From a virus, in IMG/VR virus record IMGVR_UViG_3300035698_021598, positions 1-21,397 of that record: DNA of 21,397 nucleotides; one strand, 5' to 3'. This document shows, one piece after another, positions 303 to 13,578 of the stretch; the stretch's first letter is position 1, and every line of letters begins with the position of its first letter. The notes beneath the pieces are model-generated. The model was not told the origin of the DNA and did no database searches. It saw nothing but the letters and a program-made list of their open reading frames with translations. A program made the position numbers and the translations under genes.

Positions 303-1187
303 TCAAGAAATTCTTTTAAGGAACTCATCTCGTGTTGCTGCATCCTCTCTAAAGGCACCTAATAAAGATGTGGTAGTAAATACTGAATTTTGACTCCTAA
401 CACCTCTCATAAGCATACAAAGGTGCTGTGCTTCAACTACTACACCCACTCCTTCTGGATATAAATCTTCCATTAATTGAGAAGAAATTTGAGAAGTAAG
501 ACGCTCTTGAATCTGTAATCTACGACTAAATACTTCTACTAATCTAACAAGTTTTGATGTACCTACAATACTACCTTTTCTGGGTATATATCCAATATGA
601 ACTTTGCCAAAGAAAGGTAACATATGATGCTCACACATTGAATAAAAATTAATGTCTTTTAATATAATCATTTGATCAGCATTTGGCTCTGTAAAGGTAG
701 TTAATTTTACTTCTTCCTCATAACCTCTATATAACTCATTCCATGACTTTAAAACACGTTTAGGCGTATCAACAAGTCCTTCTCTGGATGGATCTTCACC
801 TATATACTCCAGTTGTCGCACGATTAAATCTTCGGCATCTTTCTGTTCATCTTCCCAAGGAAATACCAACCACGTTCCCGGCTCATCTTTCGCATCATAC
901 AAAGATATAAATTCCGCATTAGGATTTAGTGCCATGTATTTATCCCGAGTACGCCCTGAGGCAACAATATCATCAAGAATAATATCAACACATTCTTGAT
1001 GATCATAACAGCGTATAATAGATCTATTCAAATAAGAAGCAAATCCAAGTAATATCATTCCATTTTTAGGAATACCATACACATTTTTATTATTCATTTG
1101 ATCTAAATAAGGAGAAATTTTCTGTCTAATCTCTTCCCAACTTACTTTACGTTTATTAGTTTTTGCAACTGCAGGCTTAGTCTCCAT
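303..1187 (-). CDS. folE: Phosphoribosyltransferase-like domain fused to GTP cyclohydrolase I (FolE)
   Basis: 294 aa. Residues about 117-294 form a full GTP cyclohydrolase I, which converts GTP to dihydroneopterin triphosphate, the first step of 7-deazaguanine synthesis. The zinc and active-site signature CEHHMLPFFG (C185, H187/H188) and the second cysteine in QHLCMLMRGVR (C257) are present. Residues about 36-112 look like a type I phosphoribosyltransferase: GIPKNG at 39-43, the PRPP-binding DIILDDIVASGRT at 68-80, and a closing FPWE. Ordinary FolE is about 180-220 aa, so the front domain is a real addition. The domain order suggests salvage of a purine base to a nucleotide that feeds GTP to FolE; that is inference. 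The start follows GGAGG with 7-bp spacing. The gene is last in the operon and overlaps the 3' end of queE by 46 nt. Confidence 0.93.
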   Translation of the reverse strand: METKPAVAKTNKRKVSWEEIRQKISPYLDQMNNKNVYGIPKNGMILLGFASYLNRSIIRCYDHQECVDIILDDIVASGRTRDKYMALNPNAEFISLYDAKDEPGTWLVFPWEDEQKDAEDLIVRQLEYIGEDPSREGLVDTPKRVLKSWNELYRGYEEEVKLTTFTEPNADQMIILKDINFYSMCEHHMLPFFGKVHIGYIPRKGSIVGTSKLVRLVEVFSRRLQIQERLTSQISSQLMEDLYPEGVGVVVEAQHLCMLMRGVRSQNSVFTTTSLLGAFREDAATRDEFLKRIS

Positions 1188-1738
1188 CTTGGATCCTCCA
1201 TAATGATATTAGTTAATTGTTTCATTGTATGATTAAATGGGGTAGTTATACCACTCACATAACCCCACTCTGGTTGAAGAAAATAATAATGAAAATCAGA
1301 ATCAAAATATTTTTCTAATTCTTCAGCGGTTTGTCCATTCCATATTACTTTGAGTTCATGACCAGATGTTAAAATCCAATTTTTTTTCGGTGAAACAGTT
1401 ACCCAAGAAAGATGTTTTTTTATTTCTTTAGATAAAGGAATAGTTCCATTTGTTTCAATATGTATATGATAACGTTCTAAAATAAGATAATGAAGTAAGT
1501 TTAAATCAATATGTAGTGCTGGTTCACCTCCGGTTAAACAAATATGTTTTATACTACTTCCCCTAATTCGATCAATTAACCCCTCCGCTGTCAATTCTAA
1601 ATTAACTTTATCATGATTAGTATCACACCACTGACATTTTAAATTACATCCAGAGAACCGGATAAATATCATAGCAGTTCCAGCCCACAATCCTTCTCCT
1701 TGTACACTCTGGAATATTTCATTAATTTTATAGTTCAT
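1142..1738 (-). CDS. queE: 7-carboxy-7-deazaguanine synthase QueE (radical SAM)
   Basis: 198 aa from the ATG at 1738; GTG 1750 and TTG 1747 lie too close to the AAAGGAAG ribosome site. QueE is a radical SAM enzyme that contracts the ring of CPH4 to give 7-carboxy-7-deazaguanine. The sequence shows the early FQSVQGEG motif, the cluster-binding CNLKCQWC (CX3CX2C, C31/C35/C38) and the glycine-rich TGGEP (69-73) that contacts SAM. The C-terminal LSLQLQK is a conserved QueE feature. The 5' end overlaps queD and the 3' end runs 46 nt into folE, so translation is probably coupled. Length fits the compact QueE type. I see no missing key residue. Confidence 0.95.
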   Translation of the reverse strand: MNYKINEIFQSVQGEGLWAGTAMIFIRFSGCNLKCQWCDTNHDKVNLELTAEGLIDRIRGSSIKHICLTGGEPALHIDLNLLHYLILERYHIHIETNGTIPLSKEIKKHLSWVTVSPKKNWILTSGHELKVIWNGQTAEELEKYFDSDFHYYFLQPEWGYVSGITTPFNHTMKQLTNIIMEDPRWRLSLQLQKLINVK

Positions 1739-2075
1739 AAATTGCAACACTTCCTTTCGTTTCTTCTACAGCAACTCGGTAACATACAGCATGTAATGAC
1801 TCAATAGCAACATTTACTTCTTCATGTATTAATCTGGCAAAATGCTCTGCAGTTGGCTGTCCCATATAGTCATTCAAATTCTGATGATCAAATTTCATAA
1901 CTGCTTTTTTAAGCAAAGCAAAATCCATGACCATACCTTCAGAATTTAATTTTTCAGCATGTAAATAAACAGTCACATAATAATTATGACCATGCATATT
2001 TTCACAAGGAGAATCATATGGTAATACCAAATAATGACTCGCTGAAATTTGAACAGTTTTCCTAAGTTTGTACAT
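1728..2075 (-). CDS. queD: 6-carboxytetrahydropterin synthase QueD
   Basis: 115 aa. QueD converts dihydroneopterin triphosphate, the FolE product, to 6-carboxy-tetrahydropterin. The zinc histidines appear as SASH (H14) and HGH (H28, H30), the catalytic cysteine is C24 in CENMHGH, and DHQNLNDY (63-70), PTAEHFA and the C-terminal VEET glutamates match the family. I chose the ATG at 2075 because GGAG lies upstream and the protein then begins at the usual place; an upstream ATG at 2132 would add 19 basic residues but has only a weak ribosome site. It sits between queF and queE with a 168-bp gap upstream, the largest in this operon, so some independent expression is possible. Confidence 0.95.
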   Translation of the reverse strand: MYKLRKTVQISASHYLVLPYDSPCENMHGHNYYVTVYLHAEKLNSEGMVMDFALLKKAVMKFDHQNLNDYMGQPTAEHFARLIHEEVNVAIESLHAVCYRVAVEETKGSVAIYEL

Positions 2076-2170
2076 TATTTTAAATCTCCTTTCAAATTGC
2101 CTTAAAGCACGTTTAAACAGTATCTGCTGCATTTTACTTTACTTAAGGTATGTTTATATGCCTCACTCCC

Positions 2171-2190
2171 TGAAACGATAAGTCGTTTCA
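2171..2190. other. Perfect hairpin in the queF-queD gap
   Basis: TGAAACGA (2171-2178) and TCGTTTCA (2183-2190) form an 8-bp perfect stem with a TAAG loop. No run of T follows on the minus strand, so it is not a standard intrinsic terminator; an RNA processing or stability element fits better. A TATAAT-like hexamer lies nearby on the minus strand, upstream of the hairpin, but without a good -35. I compared the gap with the preQ1-I riboswitch layout and did not find the C-rich loop and A-rich tail. Confidence 0.5.
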
Positions 2191-2243
2191 ACTCAATAGG
2201 ATACAAGCATTATACTTTAACTATATATAGAACGTACTATTAT

Positions 2244-2705
2244 TCAATCTCCTATTAAAACTTCATGTTTTTTTACTGGAAATTCATCAATAATTTCAAA
2301 ACCACCTTTAACTAATCTGGTACTAATTCCACCCCTCACAGCCACATTAATTTCAACACGAAGTTTTAGCGGTTTGACAGCCCTGAAGAAATCATCATAG
2401 ATTTTATTAATCAAATGTTCGTGCAAGATTGGCAAGTCACGGTACTCAATAAAATACAATCTAAGACTCTTCAATTCTGGTATGTACTTATTAGGCGTCC
2501 AGATAATTTTTAATTCATAATTATCCGGTAAACCAGTCATTGGACAAACACCTTCAAGTTCATTATAATTATATGTGACTTCTGTATTACTATCCTTTAA
2601 AAAATCAAGTGCAGTAATGGCACGAAGCGATGTATTTAAAATTTCTTCTTGCATTTTTCTAACATCTTCAACAGACATGTCTTCAATGTGTTTCCACTTT
2701 TCCAT
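2244..2705 (-). CDS. queF: NADPH-dependent 7-cyano-7-deazaguanine reductase QueF
   Basis: 153 aa, the size of unimodular QueF. The enzyme reduces the nitrile of preQ0 to the aminomethyl of preQ1 using NADPH. Visible hallmarks are the nucleophilic cysteine in EGVCPMTGLPD (C54, with D61 seven residues later), the diagnostic QueF NADPH motif ELKSLRLYF (77-85), and the HE pair at 95-96. Presence of the NADPH motif argues against the archaeal QueF-like amidinotransferase, which lacks it. The start at 2705 has AAGGAGG 8 bp upstream. Lying between queC and queD in a dpdA operon, it implies that the DNA mark is preQ1 or a derivative rather than preQ0. QueF could alternatively serve tRNA queuosine, but the context favours DNA. 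Confidence 0.94.
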   Translation of the reverse strand: MEKWKHIEDMSVEDVRKMQEEILNTSLRAITALDFLKDSNTEVTYNYNELEGVCPMTGLPDNYELKIIWTPNKYIPELKSLRLYFIEYRDLPILHEHLINKIYDDFFRAVKPLKLRVEINVAVRGGISTRLVKGGFEIIDEFPVKKHEVLIGD

Positions 2706-2748
2706 CGTAACTTCCTCCTTAAGGTGGTATAACCTAGTTAAGTTTGCA

Positions 2749-3414
2749 TTATTCTATATAATCTGTATGATCATGTACACCTGCTTTTTTAAATGCGCTA
2801 CGTCGTTCTCTACACGTTCCGCAAACCCCACAATGTTTTTCACCACCTTTATAACAACTATATGTAAGATGTAATGGAACTTTCATTATAAATCCTTCAT
2901 TTACAATTTCTGCTTTATTCATATGAAGAAATGGTGATTCTAAAGATACTTTTCTATTTGTACCAATATTTATAGCATTAAACATATTAGATATAAAAGT
3001 AGGTGTGCAGTCTGGATATAGAGTATGATCACCAGCATGATTGGCAATAGCAATATGGTAGCAATTTATACTCTCGGCATAACCAGCAGCGATGGACAGC
3101 ATTATCCCATTACGAAAAGGAACTACTGTACTGCCCATATTGTCTCTATCATATGAACCATCTGGAATATCATCTCCACCTTCTAATAAAGCTGATTTAA
3201 AAAGTTGCCCAATAAAAGGTAACTCAATTGAAATTAAATTTTCATTCTTTAACTTATAATGTTTGAATATTCTTCTTACAGCAAGATATTCCCTGAAATG
3301 ATGTTTCTGCCCATAATTAAAATGAAGTGCAGTAACATCATAATCTAAATCTAAATAATGAGTAAGCAAAACTGTACTATCTAAACCGCCTGAATAAATC
3401 AACACCGTCTTCAT
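2749..3414 (-). CDS. queC: 7-cyano-7-deazaguanine synthase QueC
   Basis: 221 aa. QueC is an ATP-dependent ligase that turns 7-carboxy-7-deazaguanine and ammonia into preQ0. The PP-loop SGGLDST is at 8-14, and the C-terminal zinc cysteines are C187, C195, C198 and C201 in the CYKGGEKHCGVCGTC region. The family's RNG(I/M) active-site segment is visible as PFRNGIML. The ATG at 3414 has GGGAG 6 bp upstream; an upstream ATG at 3444 lies within dpdA and has no better site. The 5' 38 nt overlap the 3' end of dpdA. Nothing is missing. Confidence 0.96.
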   Translation of the reverse strand: MKTVLIYSGGLDSTVLLTHYLDLDYDVTALHFNYGQKHHFREYLAVRRIFKHYKLKNENLISIELPFIGQLFKSALLEGGDDIPDGSYDRDNMGSTVVPFRNGIMLSIAAGYAESINCYHIAIANHAGDHTLYPDCTPTFISNMFNAINIGTNRKVSLESPFLHMNKAEIVNEGFIMKVPLHLTYSCYKGGEKHCGVCGTCRERRSAFKKAGVHDHTDYIE

Positions 3415-4303
3415 GAATAACTCCCTTCTCCATCCAGTGATCATAAATGTTTAGAACCCTTTGAGCAACCTGTATCCCAACGGCTAAGTGAAATTTAATT
3501 TTATGATGCAGATAAATATCAATAGCATACAGTATCCATGCCTTCATGGTTATCTGACCCATGAATGATTCTAAACCATCCCTTCCCCACCAATTCTCAT
3601 CCTTCAAGATTTCACGATAATCAATTCCATATACTTGAAGAGTTTTTTGTATCTTTTTACTCGGAACTCCCATGGAAGGAACGTCCCGCCGTTTCAATAC
3701 CCACCATTGAGCACCGCCTAAATATACTTCTAATGAGCCCCATTGTGCTCCTCTCATGAAATTAGTATTATCCACACTATATGGTTTATAATAATACATC
3801 AATGGTTTGTTCACATAACCGAGCCAGTGTACTTTTCGTTTGCCAATCTCCCGCATCACTCGTTTAATATATCCCATTTCAATTTTAGCAAAACCACCTT
3901 CAAGAGCACCTATTGCAACTAAAGGATTTAAGTCATACAATCCATCTATTTCCTTTATTTTTTCTCCTTTCGTAAAAATAGGAATTGGATGTAATCCAGC
4001 ATCATACATAATATTAAGATTCTTTTTTGTAATAACTGGATTACCAAGAACATCCAATTGAAAATATCCATCAACTGGGAAAGGGATTCTTTTTATGTAT
4101 GAAATATAATCTTGTAATCCAGTTTCTAAATTTCCACTCTGGACTGAAAATGCACCACAGTCAATTATCAGACTAATATCTTTTGCTCGATCCTGAAAGA
4201 GTTTAATGCACGTTTCAAGCTTCCCGGATGATCTTTTATTTTTGCTTTTCAGATGCTGATAACTCATGAGCAAATTCAATTTCATTTTAGGAGACTTTGA
4301 CAT
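3377..4303 (-). CDS. dpdA: DpdA-like DNA 7-deazaguanine transglycosylase
   Basis: 308 aa. DpdA proteins are tRNA-guanine transglycosylase relatives that exchange guanine in DNA for a 7-deazaguanine base. The TIM-barrel TGT-like strands are visible: IIDCGAFS (46-53), GYFQLDVLGNP (79-89, with the aspartate expected in substrate binding or catalysis), HPIPIF, VAIGALEGG and VHWLGYVN. I recognise the overall pattern of phage DpdA; the precise subfamily cannot be fixed by eye. The ATG at 4303 is preceded by GGGGGA with 8-bp spacing. Its 5' end overlaps the ParB-like gene by 17 nt and its 3' end overlaps queC. Being in one operon with all preQ0/preQ1 genes makes a DNA role far more likely than tRNA modification. 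Confidence 0.87.
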   Translation of the reverse strand: MSKSPKMKLNLLMSYQHLKSKNKRSSGKLETCIKLFQDRAKDISLIIDCGAFSVQSGNLETGLQDYISYIKRIPFPVDGYFQLDVLGNPVITKKNLNIMYDAGLHPIPIFTKGEKIKEIDGLYDLNPLVAIGALEGGFAKIEMGYIKRVMREIGKRKVHWLGYVNKPLMYYYKPYSVDNTNFMRGAQWGSLEVYLGGAQWWVLKRRDVPSMGVPSKKIQKTLQVYGIDYREILKDENWWGRDGLESFMGQITMKAWILYAIDIYLHHKIKFHLAVGIQVAQRVLNIYDHWMEKGVIHEDGVDLFRRFR

Positions 4304-4913
4304 CTTTATATTCCCCCAATACTCCATTGAGTTTTTCAACAATCTCGTCTTTAAGCAGGAATGGACATCTTATCTTTATAAAACAAGTAAGACCATCTTC
4401 ATTCTCCTTCAAATCTTCAATTGTTTTAAAATCAGAATCCCATAACAATTGAGCTTCTTTAAATTCCTTTTCTGTATATCCGGTATTCTCAGCAGTTAAA
4501 TCAAGATCCTCATTCTGCATGAGCATGCTCAAAACATCAGCATCCCATTCAGCAAATTCACTGGCTTTATTATCTGATAAGGCATAAGCAGTTGCTGCTG
4601 ATTTCGATTTGAATTTATGGAACACCACAGGAACCTTAGCATATCCCAGATACTTCAATGCTTTTAATGTCAAGTTACCTTTATAAATACACATGTTATC
4701 TTCCCAGGCAATTAACGGTGAGGGAATACCGTGCATCTTTATAAGTTGTGCTAATTTCTCAACCATTGAAGTAGTATGCACTCGTGGATTACCTTCCCAG
4801 TTATGCACATCACCTATTGGTACATTTAAGATCACTGGAAGAGTGGTATCAATCTTTTTCGTTTTTTTGCTGATCATCCGTGTTTTAATTTTCTTTATCT
4901 TCATTATATACAT
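4287..4913 (-). CDS. ParB/Srx-fold protein upstream of dpdA
   Basis: 208 aa. The N-terminal 20 residues are very basic. Residues about 27-125 form a ParB/Sulfiredoxin-type domain: NVPIGDVHNWEGNPRVH (ParB box I-like, NPR at 42-44), IYKGNLTLKALKYLG in the box II position, and SDNKASEFAEWD, a signature common in phage ParB-like proteins next to DNA-modification genes. These are not partition ParBs; some are nucleases or CTP-dependent DNA clamps, and here a role in guiding or licensing DNA modification is only inferred. The ATG at 4913 directly follows the upstream stop; the in-frame ATG at 4904 is an alternative start. The 3' end overlaps dpdA by 17 nt. Confidence 0.8.
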   Translation of the reverse strand: MYIMKIKKIKTRMISKKTKKIDTTLPVILNVPIGDVHNWEGNPRVHTTSMVEKLAQLIKMHGIPSPLIAWEDNMCIYKGNLTLKALKYLGYAKVPVVFHKFKSKSAATAYALSDNKASEFAEWDADVLSMLMQNEDLDLTAENTGYTEKEFKEAQLLWDSDFKTIEDLKENEDGLTCFIKIRCPFLLKDEIVEKLNGVLGEYKDVKVS

Positions 4914-5414: not shown

Positions 5415-5906
5415 TCACTTAAAAGGATTTTTGAACATCTTTCTTAATTGAGTAGCTTGTGCAGACCGAGCAGACCAAGCAGCAGACTCAGCAGCAGACC
5501 GAGCAGCAGACCAAGCAGCAGACTCAGCGGCAAACTCAGCAGCAGACCGAGCAGCAGACCGAGCAGCAGACCAAGCAGCAGACCAAGCAGCAGACCGAGC
5601 AGCAGACCCGGCAGCAGACAACTCTTCTCTTGTGGCTTGACCATTAGCAAATTTTTCCGCTACATCACAAGCCTCAATGCTTCGCTTGTCCGTATCTTTG
5701 GTAAAGGTTTGTCTTGCGTCCCACACCGCAAATAATCTTAACTGCTTATCTGTTCCATAATCAAGTTCATCCATAACCCAGAGCATCCAGTCTGAGCGTT
5801 CACATTTTTCCCATGCTTCGTGCATAGTTTGAATATTGTTTTCTTTAATCCATTCTATCGCTTCACTACAAGCCTTATGTTTTTTGCACCATGTTATAGC
5901 TTTCAT
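5415..5906 (-). CDS. Imm5-like protein with Ala/Ser-rich repeat domain
   Basis: 163 aa. The first 70 residues (MKAITWCKKHKACSEAIEW, then AWEKCERSDWMLWVMDELDYG) resemble the start of the putative immunity protein family Imm5, often seen in phages. Residues about 97-150 are a low-complexity array of SAAWSAARSAAE-type repeats encoded by 12-nt DNA repeats, followed by a short basic tail. The array should form one long amphipathic helix. Such repeats vary in number between related phages; repeat expansion by slippage is likely. AGGGG lies at a good distance from the ATG. Function is unknown; immunity-protein homology does not show that it protects from a toxin here. Confidence 0.8.
   Translation of the reverse strand: MKAITWCKKHKACSEAIEWIKENNIQTMHEAWEKCERSDWMLWVMDELDYGTDKQLRLFAVWDARQTFTKDTDKRSIEACDVAEKFANGQATREELSAAGSAARSAAWSAAWSAARSAARSAAEFAAESAAWSAARSAAESAAWSARSAQATQLRKMFKNPFK
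5461..5620. repeat. 12-nt tandem repeat array inside the Ala-rich gene
   Basis: About thirteen degenerate copies of a 12-nt unit of the form AGCAGACCRAGC, in frame with the minus-strand gene (Ser-Ala-Ala-Arg/Trp/Glu). The purine/CAG-rich sequence gives long open frames in several other frames; these are artefacts of the repeat. Confidence 0.9.
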
Positions 5907-6601: not shown

Positions 6602-6800
6602 CTGTTCCACGCATTAACAAGGTTTTTTTCCGTGTGTAGTTCCGGTCAATACCCACAGGACATTTTCTACATTCAAGAGTATATATCCCTTTTGGAAATC
6701 CCGGATTTATTGATTTTGTTATCTGTGCACGGCTGCCACAAAACGGGCATGGTTTTAATTTGGCTTTCACCATCTCAGCAAACTCCATTCTACTGTTCAT
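6552..6800 (-). CDS. Lar-like zinc-ribbon protein
   Basis: 82 aa. KLKPCPFCGSRAQI with a second pair in LECRKC gives a four-cysteine zinc ribbon, and the C-terminal GWQMTNDWN matches the conserved tryptophan/asparagine end of the Lar (restriction alleviation) family. Lar of the Rac prophage lowers type I restriction by enhancing modification, but most phage homologues are untested. AAGGAGG with 7-bp spacing selects the ATG at 6800 over a GTG one codon upstream. The start overlaps the stop of the upstream gene (ATGA). Confidence 0.72.
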   Translation of the reverse strand: MNSRMEFAEMVKAKLKPCPFCGSRAQITKSINPGFPKGIYTLECRKCPVGIDRNYTRKKTLLMRGTDGWQMTNDWNIPCILC

Positions 6801-9857: not shown

Positions 9858-10472
9858 TTATTTATAATCTACATTTATAAGTTCTAAAATTTTATTCAAA
9901 CCTAATGTAAAAATACAATATTTATATAACTGTGGATGTGTTTGCTTCATCAATTGAAAACGATTTGGATATTTATCAAAATGTACCCCAAACATACAAA
10001 ATATACAACCTGTATTTTTATATCCCATATTATAAATCTTTGAATAAGGTACATTAAATTGTTTTATATAATCCCATATATCCTTTTCTGTCCAAAATGC
10101 TAAAGGATTTGAGCGAGGATGCTCACTTATAAAATTATTACAACCACCTCTTTTATAAGCAAAAGCTCGGGATGAAGAATCAATTGCTTTCAATCCAATA
10201 AATGGTTTCTTCCTACTTCTTTTTTCATACTCACGTGCCGGGTTTATTTTGAGTATATTGCAACATTTTTTAGAAAATTTAAAATCTGCATCAATTAAAT
10301 ATCTCCATTTCTGTGCTAATTTAACATCTTCCCATTTAGCAAAAGTACCATCTCTTTTTTCACCTGTTAGAATATATCTCCGTATATTAACATTTTTATC
10401 AGAAGGATTCTGTAAATATTCCAATTGCTGACAGATTTTTTTTTGATAATATAGGATAACCATAAGTTTCAA
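9858..10472 (-). CDS. PAPS reductase-like protein, C-terminal part after a frameshift
   Basis: Carries the C-terminal two-thirds of a phosphoadenosine-phosphosulfate-reductase-like protein: the KKCCNILKINPAREYEK segment, IGLKAIDSSSR and GCIFCMFG with paired cysteines. It overlaps the N-terminal part by 74 nt in another frame. Continuity of the family pattern places the junction at nine adenines (minus strand of 10436-10444). One base fewer there, or a +1 slip, would fuse the two parts into about 300 aa. An ATG at 10472 exists but has no convincing ribosome site and would leave an enzyme without its PP-loop. Confidence 0.72.
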   Translation of the reverse strand: MKLMVILYYQKKICQQLEYLQNPSDKNVNIRRYILTGEKRDGTFAKWEDVKLAQKWRYLIDADFKFSKKCCNILKINPAREYEKRSRKKPFIGLKAIDSSSRAFAYKRGGCNNFISEHPRSNPLAFWTEKDIWDYIKQFNVPYSKIYNMGYKNTGCIFCMFGVHFDKYPNRFQLMKQTHPQLYKYCIFTLGLNKILELINVDYK

Positions 10473-10764
10473 GTACCTTTTTAAAAGTCATTTTTGGTTT
10501 TAACCAACGTACATTTTTTATAGTTTTTACAAATTCTCTTATCTCCGGGAATTCTAATCCTGTATCATTAAATACACCCCAAACTCGTGGATATAATTTA
10601 CGTACAAGATGCAATAATACAGTACTATCTTTTCCACCAGAAAATGCTACATAAATTAAACCATCCCAGTGATCATACCACTCTCTAATACGTTTTTCAC
10701 TCATTAATATTTTAATATCTAATGGTAATGATTGTCTTTGTTTTAATTGCCAATTTTCTAACAT
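10399..10764 (-). CDS. PAPS reductase-like protein, N-terminal part with PP-loop
   Basis: 121 aa as read. VAFSGGKDSTVLLHLV is a textbook PP-loop of the PAPS reductase/ATP sulfurylase family, and NDTGLEFPEI is the second conserved block. After YGYPILSKK the frame runs into unrelated residues and stops at 10399, while the expected continuation is in the overlapping frame. Phages often carry these proteins near replication or modification genes; substrates are mostly unknown. The ATG at 10764 overlaps the polymerase stop by 7 nt. The break at an A9 run may be an assembly or sequencing indel, a real mutation or programmed slippage. Confidence 0.75.
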   Translation of the reverse strand: MLENWQLKQRQSLPLDIKILMSEKRIREWYDHWDGLIYVAFSGGKDSTVLLHLVRKLYPRVWGVFNDTGLEFPEIREFVKTIKNVRWLKPKMTFKKVLETYGYPILSKKNLSAIGIFTESF

Positions 10765-12500
10765 ATTTTATAGTTCCTTGCCTTATCCCACGTTGTAGTA
10801 GACATCTTCCATTCCACTGATAAGAGTACTTTAATTTCTGGCATGGTAGTCATTATATTACCAATTTCAGATAATATTTCCGGAGCATATCTTAATAATT
10901 TTCTGGGATAATTTAAAATAATTTCATCATGTATTGGTAATATAATTCTAATATCATTATTCCATACATTTTTAAGATACTCTGCTGCCACCCTGACTTG
11001 TGCTCGTTTAAGAATCCCAGCAGCAGTTCCCTGAATAAGATAATTTGCTCCGGCATATGTTTTATTTGCCGGTAAATGAAGTTTACGACCAAATGGTGTT
11101 ATTATATATCCAAATTCTTGAACTTGTTTTGATATTATAGATGAAAAATATGCTATATTTGGATGTTTTGATTGATATGCTTTTAATCCTGGATTAGTTA
11201 CTTCCAATGATAATCCTAAGGCATGAGCAACGGAGGCTAATCCTGCACCATATGGTATAGCAAAATGAGCATTTTTTGCAGCATCACGTTGTATTTTTTC
11301 TCCAGTAAATAAATCACCATAAAGTATTCTGGAAGCAATCATATGTACATCTTCATTTTTTCGGATAGCCTCTAACATAATTTCATCATGAGCAGCATCT
11401 ACAATTAAACGCATCTCAATACCGGCGTAATCACCAAAGAATAAAACATGTCCAGGAAAGGAAGTAAAACAACGCCTTGCAGGTACGGCAAAAGGAACAA
11501 GTAAAACTTCTTCTTTTGATACAGTTTGAAGTGGAGGATTAGTTACTGATTCTCTTCCTGTTCGTGCTTGATTAGTATTTATTTTAGGATGAATAATACA
11601 ATTATCATCCATACTATTAAGGTATTTTTTAATCATAGCAATACCTTTAGTATATGATCGGTGTTTTAATATTAAATTGAAAATCGGATTATTATTTTTA
11701 CTGGCAAAATCCATTAAAACATTTTTATCAACAGAAGCCTGTTTACCTTTGGTAGTAAAAGTAAGAACTGGGAGATTCATCGTACCAAAAAGAATTTTTC
11801 GTACTTGTGGCTCACTGCTGAGATTTACAAATTCTCCAAGAAGTTCATATGTTTTATCTCTCACCGTTTCAACCTCTATCTCAAGCCATTCTATAAGTTT
11901 ATTTGCCTCCTTTACACTTACTTTAATACCATGATCTTCCATCTGCTGTGTGACTTTAATAAGTGCAATCTCATTCAGATAATCTTCATACAATTTTTTA
12001 TCTGCTTTTATTTCCTCATACCATAACTGGAATAAAAGCATTGTACGTTCACCATCTGATACCTGGTAAGGTTTCATTATATACTCTGGAATATGCTGAT
12101 AACCACCGAGCTTATTTCCCAATATTTTTACTTTAATATCTAATGCTCGACTATACCCACCTAAATTCCAACATAAAGCATCCAGAGAATGACTTGGTGC
12201 AAGGTTATATAATAATTGACTCATGATCATTGTATCATGCCAAACCGTTTCTTCTGGAATTGGGATATTATGTGATTTAAGGAAAGATAATTCAAAATGA
12301 TAATTATGACATATTTTGGCAATATTAGTATCTGCAAAAAATGCCTTTTGTTTTTCTTGATTAATAGCATTTGTTTTTCTATCACGATCCACTCGATATA
12401 CACCTACACTGCCATCCCAATTACCAATACAATATGAAAAAATTGTATCTTCACGAGGATTAAATCCGGTAGTTTCAATGTCGAATGTTTTAAAAAGCAT
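10758..12500 (-). CDS. Family A DNA polymerase with 3'-5' exonuclease
   Basis: 580 aa. The exonuclease has FDIETTGF (D7, E9) and CHNYHFEL (64-71). Polymerase motifs are all visible: RTGRESVTNPPLQT (311-324), motif A FFGDYAGIEMR (D355), motif B RDAAKNAHFAIPYG (403-416), LIQGTAAGILK (487-497) and motif C IHDEI (521-525). There is no 5'-3' exonuclease domain, as usual for compact phage replicative polymerases. The frame is open up to 12617, but that would start inside the tRNA-like RNA; GGAG with 6-bp spacing picks the ATG at 12500. It lies between the tRNA-like RNA and the PAPS-reductase-like gene, coupled to the latter. It must copy, and its product receive, 7-deazaguanine if the operon is active. 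Confidence 0.95.
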   Translation of the reverse strand: MLFKTFDIETTGFNPREDTIFSYCIGNWDGSVGVYRVDRDRKTNAINQEKQKAFFADTNIAKICHNYHFELSFLKSHNIPIPEETVWHDTMIMSQLLYNLAPSHSLDALCWNLGGYSRALDIKVKILGNKLGGYQHIPEYIMKPYQVSDGERTMLLFQLWYEEIKADKKLYEDYLNEIALIKVTQQMEDHGIKVSVKEANKLIEWLEIEVETVRDKTYELLGEFVNLSSEPQVRKILFGTMNLPVLTFTTKGKQASVDKNVLMDFASKNNNPIFNLILKHRSYTKGIAMIKKYLNSMDDNCIIHPKINTNQARTGRESVTNPPLQTVSKEEVLLVPFAVPARRCFTSFPGHVLFFGDYAGIEMRLIVDAAHDEIMLEAIRKNEDVHMIASRILYGDLFTGEKIQRDAAKNAHFAIPYGAGLASVAHALGLSLEVTNPGLKAYQSKHPNIAYFSSIISKQVQEFGYIITPFGRKLHLPANKTYAGANYLIQGTAAGILKRAQVRVAAEYLKNVWNNDIRIILPIHDEIILNYPRKLLRYAPEILSEIGNIMTTMPEIKVLLSVEWKMSTTTWDKARNYKIC

Positions 12501-12560
12501 TTTACTCTCCAGGAGCATGGTTTTGGTCATATTTGAGCATTTGTAATATACTTCCTCAAT

Positions 12561-12670
12561 CTCAAGGGACTGGCAAGATTCGAACCTGCACGATGAATAG
12601 TAGGCTTTATCATCCACTCATTGTAGCCTACAAGAGTGTGCGTTTACCAGTTTCGCCACAGTCCCTTGAG
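12561..12670 (-). ncRNA. Leu-tRNA-like RNA with aberrant anticodon and variable arms
   Basis: On the minus strand GGGACTG/CAGTCCC form an acceptor-like stem that continues perfectly to 12 bp (12659-12670 with 12561-12572). TGGCGAAACTGGTAAACGCA is nearly the D-arm of Firmicute tRNA-Leu, and GCAGG-TTCGAAT-CTTGC is a normal T-arm. The anticodon stem CACTC/GAGTG (12634-12638, 12615-12619) encloses 14 nt instead of 7. The long variable arm GATGA/TCATC has a 13-nt loop. GTAGGCT in the anticodon loop is exactly complementary to AGCCTAC in the variable loop (12625-12631, 12600-12606), so the loops could kiss. No usual 7-nt anticodon loop can be drawn; a GUA triplet follows a U but with the wrong loop size. 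It may be a degenerate tRNA, a tRNA mimic, or a tRNA needing processing. Confidence 0.75.
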
Positions 12671-12684
12671 ATAAAAATTAAAGG

Positions 12685-13578
12685 TTATGAATTATTTTTT
12701 CTTTTTGCTTTTGCTGTTGACTTTTTTGGAGTCCTTATAATGTCAGACTCCAAGCCGAGATTTTCAAGAAGAGTAACTTCATCATCAGTAATTTCATCTT
12801 CCTTATACTGGTACTCATCAATATACTGCTTGATGGCATCGAGATCATCGGTCTCTTCAACAGGTATGTCCTGACCAGTACAAAATTCCCGAATGGCTTC
12901 TAATAATGCTATTTCAGCATCATCTACAGATTCAGTTTCTTCTACTTCCTCAACTTCTTCCTCGGCTTCTTCCTCGGCTTCTTCGGCCTCTTCTTCATCG
13001 GAAGGTGTGCCATTAAGTGCCTCAATAATAGCATCCTGTAATTCCTTGAGACTGAAATCATCGGGATCAATATCTGATAATTTTTCTTCTTCAATAACAT
13101 TAACTAAAGAGCCGCGATTCATTGCTTTTATTTCTTCTACTGCATACCCACCGGCATTTTCTTCACTGAGATTTTCCATAACAGTAACATTAGTGAAATT
13201 ACCAGAATGAGATACCTTTATTTTAACAGCAGGAGCAGCTTCAGCAATTGCCTCACAGACATTTGGTAAATCTTCCATTTTAGCTGGGCACTCATATCCG
13301 TAGGAGTCAATTTCCCTGCGGGCAAATGCTAAAGATAATTCAGAAGTTTCAAGTTGAAGATTATCATATACAGTAACACCTCCAAACTCACCTTCCGTGA
13401 TCAAGTGCTGACGTTTGATTTGGAGATTACCTGAACCAGATTCTCCAATCTCAAACTTCTGTAATGTTGCAATATAAACACCTGCCTCAACTTCGGCAAA
13501 CATCTCTTTTGCTTGTTTCTTTGATTCTTTCCACTGACTATCCATTTTTTTCAAACGTGCTTTGAATTTTGAAACCAT
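12685..13578 (-). CDS. Single-strand DNA-binding protein (DUF669-like) with acidic tail
   Basis: 297 aa. Residues about 28-140 resemble the DUF669-type OB-fold proteins of phages: AGVYIATLQKFEIGESGSGN, then QIKRQHLITEGEFGGVTVYD. A run of almost only Glu and Asp (193-220) follows, a larger version of the acidic tail by which SSBs recruit partners, and the protein ends with a basic KKSTAKAKRKNN. It lies between the Sak4-like ATPase and the polymerase, the usual setting for such an SSB. GAGG precedes the ATG at 13578; the upstream ATG at 13620 lacks a ribosome site. Assignment to DUF669 is by pattern and context. Confidence 0.75.
   Translation of the reverse strand: MVSKFKARLKKMDSQWKESKKQAKEMFAEVEAGVYIATLQKFEIGESGSGNLQIKRQHLITEGEFGGVTVYDNLQLETSELSLAFARREIDSYGYECPAKMEDLPNVCEAIAEAAPAVKIKVSHSGNFTNVTVMENLSEENAGGYAVEEIKAMNRGSLVNVIEEEKLSDIDPDDFSLKELQDAIIEALNGTPSDEEEAEEAEEEAEEEVEEVEETESVDDAEIALLEAIREFCTGQDIPVEETDDLDAIKQYIDEYQYKEDEITDDEVTLLENLGLESDIIRTPKKSTAKAKRKNNS

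Follow-up and report, generated by a model that had tools for sequence, protein, structure and literature searches.

A class of phage RNAs with a tRNA-Leu body and a replaced decoding end, possibly acting outside codon reading

Our analyses place a tRNA-Leu-shaped RNA, recognised by sequence and fold prediction on the minus strand (12671-12560) of a phage fragment, in what is very probably a class comprising no fewer than 119 distinct phage elements with a tRNA-Leu shell, a hypervariable interior and no ordinary anticodon arm. The fragment, a virus record in IMG/VR analysed over its whole length of 21,397 nucleotides, is hereafter called the window. To the complete reading, in which this phage RNA class joins a tRNA-Leu body and a replaced decoding end to a non-decoding acceptor or decoy role, we assign a probability of about 0.5, while its functional part taken separately is tentative. 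A more specific version, in which phages, several with Bacteroidota hosts, encode a large, unrecognised anticodon-less tRNA-Leu-like family, with a pseudoknot or kissing-loop module in place of the decoding end, whose members are mostly leucine-charged, barred from decoding and engaged in a role outside codon reading, falls slightly short of an even chance in our estimation.

The whole element (12560-12671, minus strand, as are all its parts below) matches the generic Rfam tRNA model RF00005 at 12565-12665 with 39.9 bits (gathering score 29), and no tRNA was called there by ARAGORN. Its fold energy is -43.3 kcal/mol, compared with -26.8 kcal/mol in dinucleotide shuffles (z -5.2). The acceptor stem is formed by GGGACTG (12659-12665) and CAGTCCC (12566-12572), and the leader side of its extension, TCTCAA (12666-12671), makes six more pairs with 12560-12565. 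The original prediction of a closing stem longer than 7 bp was right in kind, its uninterrupted length being 13 bp (12671-12659 with 12572-12560) rather than the 12 bp proposed; among the 119 elements, L084 is the sole other case with six extra acceptor pairs. The D arm GCGAAACTGGTAAACGC (12640-12656), with a 3-bp stem GCG/CGC and GG at positions 18-19, carries A14, A15, G18, G19 and A20a, and we take it to be of the tRNA-Leu type. The T arm GCAGG-TTCGAAT-CTTGC (12573-12589) is recovered by both the Rfam match and the fold, and the linker GT (12590-12591) contains U48, kept class-wide, so that the Levitt pair A15-U48 and G18G19 are both present in the sequence. The discriminator (12565) is U73, where tRNA-Leu has A, and in place of a leucine anticodon in a 7-nt loop the window copy has a loop of 14 nt. 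Judged by its D arm and A15-U48, the Leu-like assignment of the window copy is correct despite U73; the predicted family is upheld by these features and not by the discriminator. A tRNA-Tyr hidden in the anticodon loop was considered and discarded, the D arm being of the tRNA-Leu type.

In the anticodon arm (12615-12638), the stem CACTC/GAGTG encloses the 14-nt loop TTGTAGGCTACAAT (12633-12620), double the usual size as had been proposed. The variable arm (12592-12614) consists of the stem GATGA/TCATC and the 13-nt loop TAAAGCCTACTAT (12609-12597), and the 3' strand of its stem, followed by GT, stops 2 nt before the T stem, which is the class-wide position. The perfect 7-nt complementarity claimed between the two loops was recovered, GTAGGCT (12631-12625) making seven Watson-Crick pairs with AGCCTAC (12606-12600). 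A loop-loop run of at least seven such pairs occurred in 0.75% of shuffled loop pairs (P = 0.0075), and the best crossing helix pair of the window interior was unmatched in 60 shuffles. The alternative TTGTA/TACAA fold of the same arm also proved real: at -42.7 kcal/mol, the hairpin TTGTA-GGC-TACAA (12621-12633) improves on the open loop (-39.0 kcal/mol) by 3.7 kcal/mol and precludes the kiss. The isolated 7-bp kissing duplex has an energy of -9.8 kcal/mol, a value from a different model than that of the hairpin, and the two give no choice between the forms. In our reading, the window copy probably adopts two hairpins with kissing loops. The same topology, two hairpins with loops able to pair, is seen in L088, L152 and L178, in which the kiss AGTTG/CAACT is invariant and both flanking stems covary. 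L084, which resembles the window copy in having a closing stem of 13 bp and a loop that is palindromic, has no kiss, a warning that the nearly palindromic anticodon-like loop of the window, which is able to fold on itself, might simply be an extended hairpin. This loop also includes UGU, the triplet of tRNA-guanine transglycosylase, probably a coincidence.

The element follows an ORF that ends at 12685 and precedes, on the same strand, the gene for a family A DNA polymerase. The most likely start of the polymerase is the ATG at 12500, which has GGAG upstream; the listed GTG start at 12617, which would overlap the element, has no such upstream support. Neither a terminator-like T run after the 13-bp stem nor a neighbouring tRNA within the window was found. 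Elsewhere on the minus strand of the window, positions 303-4913 hold a 7-deazaguanine cluster, comprising GTP cyclohydrolase I, a radical SAM protein at the QueE position, a QueD-type PTPS, QueF, QueC, a DpdA-like transglycosylase match and a ParB-like protein, which suggests modified DNA bases. A PAPS-reductase-like gene (9858-10764) is divided between overlapping frames at 10399-10764 and 9858-10472, through a frameshift, a programmed shift or a sequencing error, and a protein encoded at 5415-5906 has a long run of SAAW/SAAR/SAAE-type repeats.

Close homologues of the window copy were not found by exact or blast searches. The exact 16-mer of the loop had seven matches in viral contigs, none in a tRNA context; exact peptides retrieved no relatives of the polymerase, megablast of the window against phages gave no match, blastn of the element against phages returned tRNA fragments only, and a scan for a Leu D arm followed by AGCCTAC was empty. 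Relatives of the shell were recovered with a pattern combining the end of the Leu D loop with the T loop, separated by a gap longer than an ordinary tRNA-Leu would allow. This first pattern was matched by at least 120 viral stretches, with a common shell and very different interiors. The set was enlarged by two more scans and a scan of genomes, then filtered for acceptor and T-stem pairing and cleared of near-duplicates to give the 119 distinct elements, window included. Their interiors are 42-103 nt long, and the window copy fits the class in its Leu-type shell, long interior and absence of a 5-7-5 anticodon arm. The hosts named by the genome scan include Sphingobacterium strains and other Bacteroidota; the 301 genomes screened around Sphingobacterium gave six matches, and the element is therefore rare and prophage-like there. 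A distinct subfamily (L144, L145, L146 and L159) has in common a Leu-like element with a conserved AACCGAAAGGAG in a long anticodon loop, and two of these phages exceed 200 kb.

Since the search patterns themselves specify portions of both the D and the T arm, conservation there is uninformative, and we focused on positions absent from every pattern, of which U48 is kept in 115 of the 119 elements and A73 in 94. A14 and A15, lying outside the first pattern and partly within later ones, are both present in all 69 elements with a standard D arm. The leucyl-tRNA synthetase (LeuRS) of Escherichia coli requires A73, A15-U48, G18G19 and A20a and dispenses with the anticodon and variable arms; E. coli tRNA-Leu deprived of both is still charged (reviewed in PMC9976931). 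By its sequences, the class is one that retains the predicted requirements of LeuRS and sheds those of the ribosome. The original prediction had held that homologues with an ordinary 7-nt loop would speak against it, and long-interior relatives carried no ordinary anticodon arm beyond chance: arms of 5 bp, 7 nt and 5 bp were observed in 8 of 119 elements (8.8 expected), under a length filter that drops ordinary tRNA-Leu by design but would let through an ordinary arm accompanied by a long variable one. The predicted tRNA mimic devoid of a usable anticodon is strongly supported, as one of at least 119 phage elements in which other structure, often a covarying pseudoknot, has replaced the anticodon region.

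The interior is structured in a recurrent manner. A helix (cut-off below -7 kcal/mol) with its 3' strand stopping precisely 2 nt short of the T stem occurs in 50% of the elements and in 10% of shuffles, and the enrichment peaks at exactly this offset. In the 90 elements with a strong helix, the 5' strand mostly lies 5-20 nt into the interior, at the normal site of the anticodon arm. Crossing helices average -6.4, compared with -5.0 in shuffles; individually, only 20% of the elements fall below the shuffled 5th percentile, and pooled statistics of crossing versus nested helices show only a modest crossing excess. Not every member forms a clear pseudoknot, and the interior is often knotted. Across four pairs of diverged homologues, 17 of 25 base pairs of the crossing helices, themselves picked after inspection, have changed on both sides and none is broken: 4/6 in L030/L114 (offsets identical in both members), 5/7 in L020/L082, 4/5 in L012/L104, where one bulge is removed, and 4/7 in L031/L095. 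The covarying helix forms a pseudoknot in these pairs. The original prediction had regarded covariation between the loops as decisive. The crossing helices of relatives do covary; for the kiss of the window copy, the complementarity stands and the covariation proof does not, as no homologue was found and the kiss of L088, L152 and L178 is invariant, which leaves its own 7-nt kiss unproven. That U48, A73 and a covarying helix in the interior persist from phage to phage indicates that the lack of an anticodon arm is being maintained.

For 38 of the 119 elements there is a further tRNA no more than 1 kb away, compared with 15 at random positions, and these neighbours are co-oriented with the class elements (92 on the same strand, 0 on the opposite one). 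Only two elements lie inside an ORF of at least 100 codons, and clustering of gene neighbours revealed no protein family recurring consistently beside them, which argues that the RNA itself is the unit. Altogether, tRNA proximity, strand, ORF and neighbour data point to free-standing RNA genes in RNA clusters. Phage tmRNAs are uncommon, and the occurrence of tmRNA genes in the same stretch as the elements L016, L029, L033, L114 and L010 (the last permuted), often within about 200 bp, may therefore be meaningful; phage tmRNA genes close to tRNA-Leu-like elements were also noticed at L012 and L113.

Several other tRNA-like sequences came to light in these surveys. A second type (L053 836-992, L038 12256-12431 and L113 5819-5974) has an ordinary-looking anticodon hairpin and an insert of about 75 nt with a common GGGTTGACCAC and nearby motifs. 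Chromosomal tRNA arrays of Aquimarina (L129, L130, L134, L135 and L136) include a tRNA-Leu-type gene missed by ARAGORN, with a long variable arm, an ordinary 7-nt loop and an apparent anticodon that varies by species (AGA, TTT, TAG, GAA). Tenacibaculum phage pT24 bears two near-identical genes annotated as tRNA-Undet (L189 5790-5868 and 6157-6235) with an odd anticodon arm GGGTATATTACCC, the crAss-like phage cr4_1 has an unannotated, intergenic small tRNA-like sequence (L188, about 2940-3030), and the virus contig L028 combines a Sphingobacterium-type element with matches to the Pistol ribozyme and RT-17 RNA (6614-6684 and 10857-10940).

In the mechanism that we propose for this widespread class, the tRNA body is kept (acceptor, D and T arms, elbow and A15-U48) and the anticodon and variable arms are swapped for a self-contained fold, usually an H-type pseudoknot. 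The RNA would be produced as a small stable RNA, processed and bearing CCA, and its body would be recognised by host proteins that handle tRNAs, namely LeuRS for members with A73, the CCA-adding enzyme and perhaps EF-Tu. Members with A73 could then be charged with leucine yet be unable to decode, while the locked loop would keep the RNA off mRNA and offer no anticodon loop to anticodon nucleases, leaving a role as a non-decoding leucine acceptor or as a tRNA decoy. For the window copy, the most likely function is that of a non-decoding RNA bound via its tRNA body. Its leucylation and normal end processing are doubtful because of U73 and the 13-bp stem, two features whose presence suggests that both are reduced or changed; A73 is the principal determinant for leucine, and the stem could hinder processing by RNase P and RNase Z.

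These same two features make a role inside the polymerase transcript the main rival for the window copy. The element would then be a cis-acting structure of the 5' UTR, retained in the mRNA of the DNA polymerase gene and controlling its processing or translation, possibly as a switch whose two states are the TTGTA/TACAA hairpin and the kissing loops. The location between the ORF end at 12685 and the ATG at 12500 with its GGAG on the same strand, the oddity of a 13-bp stem and U73 in a processed tRNA, and the presence of two mutually exclusive folds are in keeping with this scenario, which we nevertheless judge unlikely, given that relatives occur in many gene contexts and beside tRNAs, share no common neighbour gene, and that the ribosome-binding site (about 12507-12510) is outside the fold. 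It is likewise improbable that the element is a tRNA-Leu pseudogene in decay that has gained a few bases and whose 7-nt loop match arose by chance. Such decay would accommodate U73, the self-folding capacity of the nearly palindromic loop and the failure to find a homologue of the window copy, and the loop match alone is just a 0.75% event spotted after the fact; yet every stem of the shell is intact, and U48, A73 and the covarying interior helix are kept across phages in the class. Phage genomes also retain little dead sequence, which counts against decay.

As the specific explanation, a decoy against tRNA-cutting defences, which the original prediction had envisaged among other roles, or a stand-in in the face of such defences is quite unlikely. 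The hypervariable interiors and the lack of a cleavable anticodon loop across the class speak for it, as does the proposal that phage tRNAs evade anticodon nucleases via loop changes (PMC10264068). A decoy for an anticodon nuclease, however, should display an anticodon loop, which the class does not, and a stand-in must decode, which the element cannot. The 14 nt of the loop could also be read as 7 + 7, that is, as a tRNA with a 7-nt intron in its anticodon loop, excision of which could leave the ordinary loop TTGTAGG with U33 and anticodon GUA. This we hold to be highly improbable, as the window has no match to the group I intron model (RF00028), the 42-103 nt interiors of relatives are not flanked by a canonical arm, and we know of no bacterial machinery for so tiny an intron.

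The non-decoding RNA that we favour resembles several known systems in part. Bacterial tRNA-Leu, of class II, is alike in its 7-bp acceptor (here within a longer stem), Leu-type D arm, G18G19, A15-U48, T arm, long variable region and match to the generic Rfam tRNA model, whereas the element differs by its 14-nt anticodon loop, lack of a usable anticodon, U73, 13-bp closing stem and loop-loop pairing. Minimal E. coli tRNA-Leu constructs (PMC9976931) indicate that the shell of the class suffices for leucylation given A73; they are artificial deletions, whereas in the element structured RNA takes the place of the arms, and its discriminator is U73. The tRNA-like domain of tmRNA, whose genes adjoin several class members, also has a tRNA body and an anticodon arm replaced by other RNA with pseudoknots, while the element has no tag reading frame, a G-C instead of G3-U70 at pair 3-70, a normal D stem and a length of about 100 nt, and the window has no match to the Rfam tmRNA model (RF00023). 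Plant viral tRNA-like structures are likewise viral RNAs that mimic tRNA with pseudoknots; in these, the pseudoknot makes the acceptor arm at the 3' end of the genome, whereas the class has an ordinary acceptor and a knotted anticodon/variable region. Phage tRNAs with altered anticodon loops (PMC10264068) are similarly phage-borne RNAs of tRNA type with a changed loop but, unlike the element, remain decoding and have an arm of normal size.

Annotation bears few traces of the class. ARAGORN called 11 of the 119 elements, most as unknown or misidentified, one such element in MW202828, a phage record of GenBank, goes without any RNA annotation, and Rfam offers just its generic tRNA model. We found no description of the class in the open-licence literature, a scope that makes this weak evidence of novelty; the class is apparently undescribed, tRNA-like RNA as such being known, and there is a fair chance that it merits the status of a separate family.

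It has been asked for decades what phages gain from their tRNA genes, the usual answers being codon use or the replacement of cut tRNAs. Neither accounts for a class that is maintained with a tRNA body and no anticodon, and that suggests roles exerted via that body, through the synthetase, EF-Tu, the CCA enzyme or stress sensing, by elements largely invisible to annotation. If this reading is true, most of its members would be natural tRNA-scaffold RNAs with a role outside codon reading.
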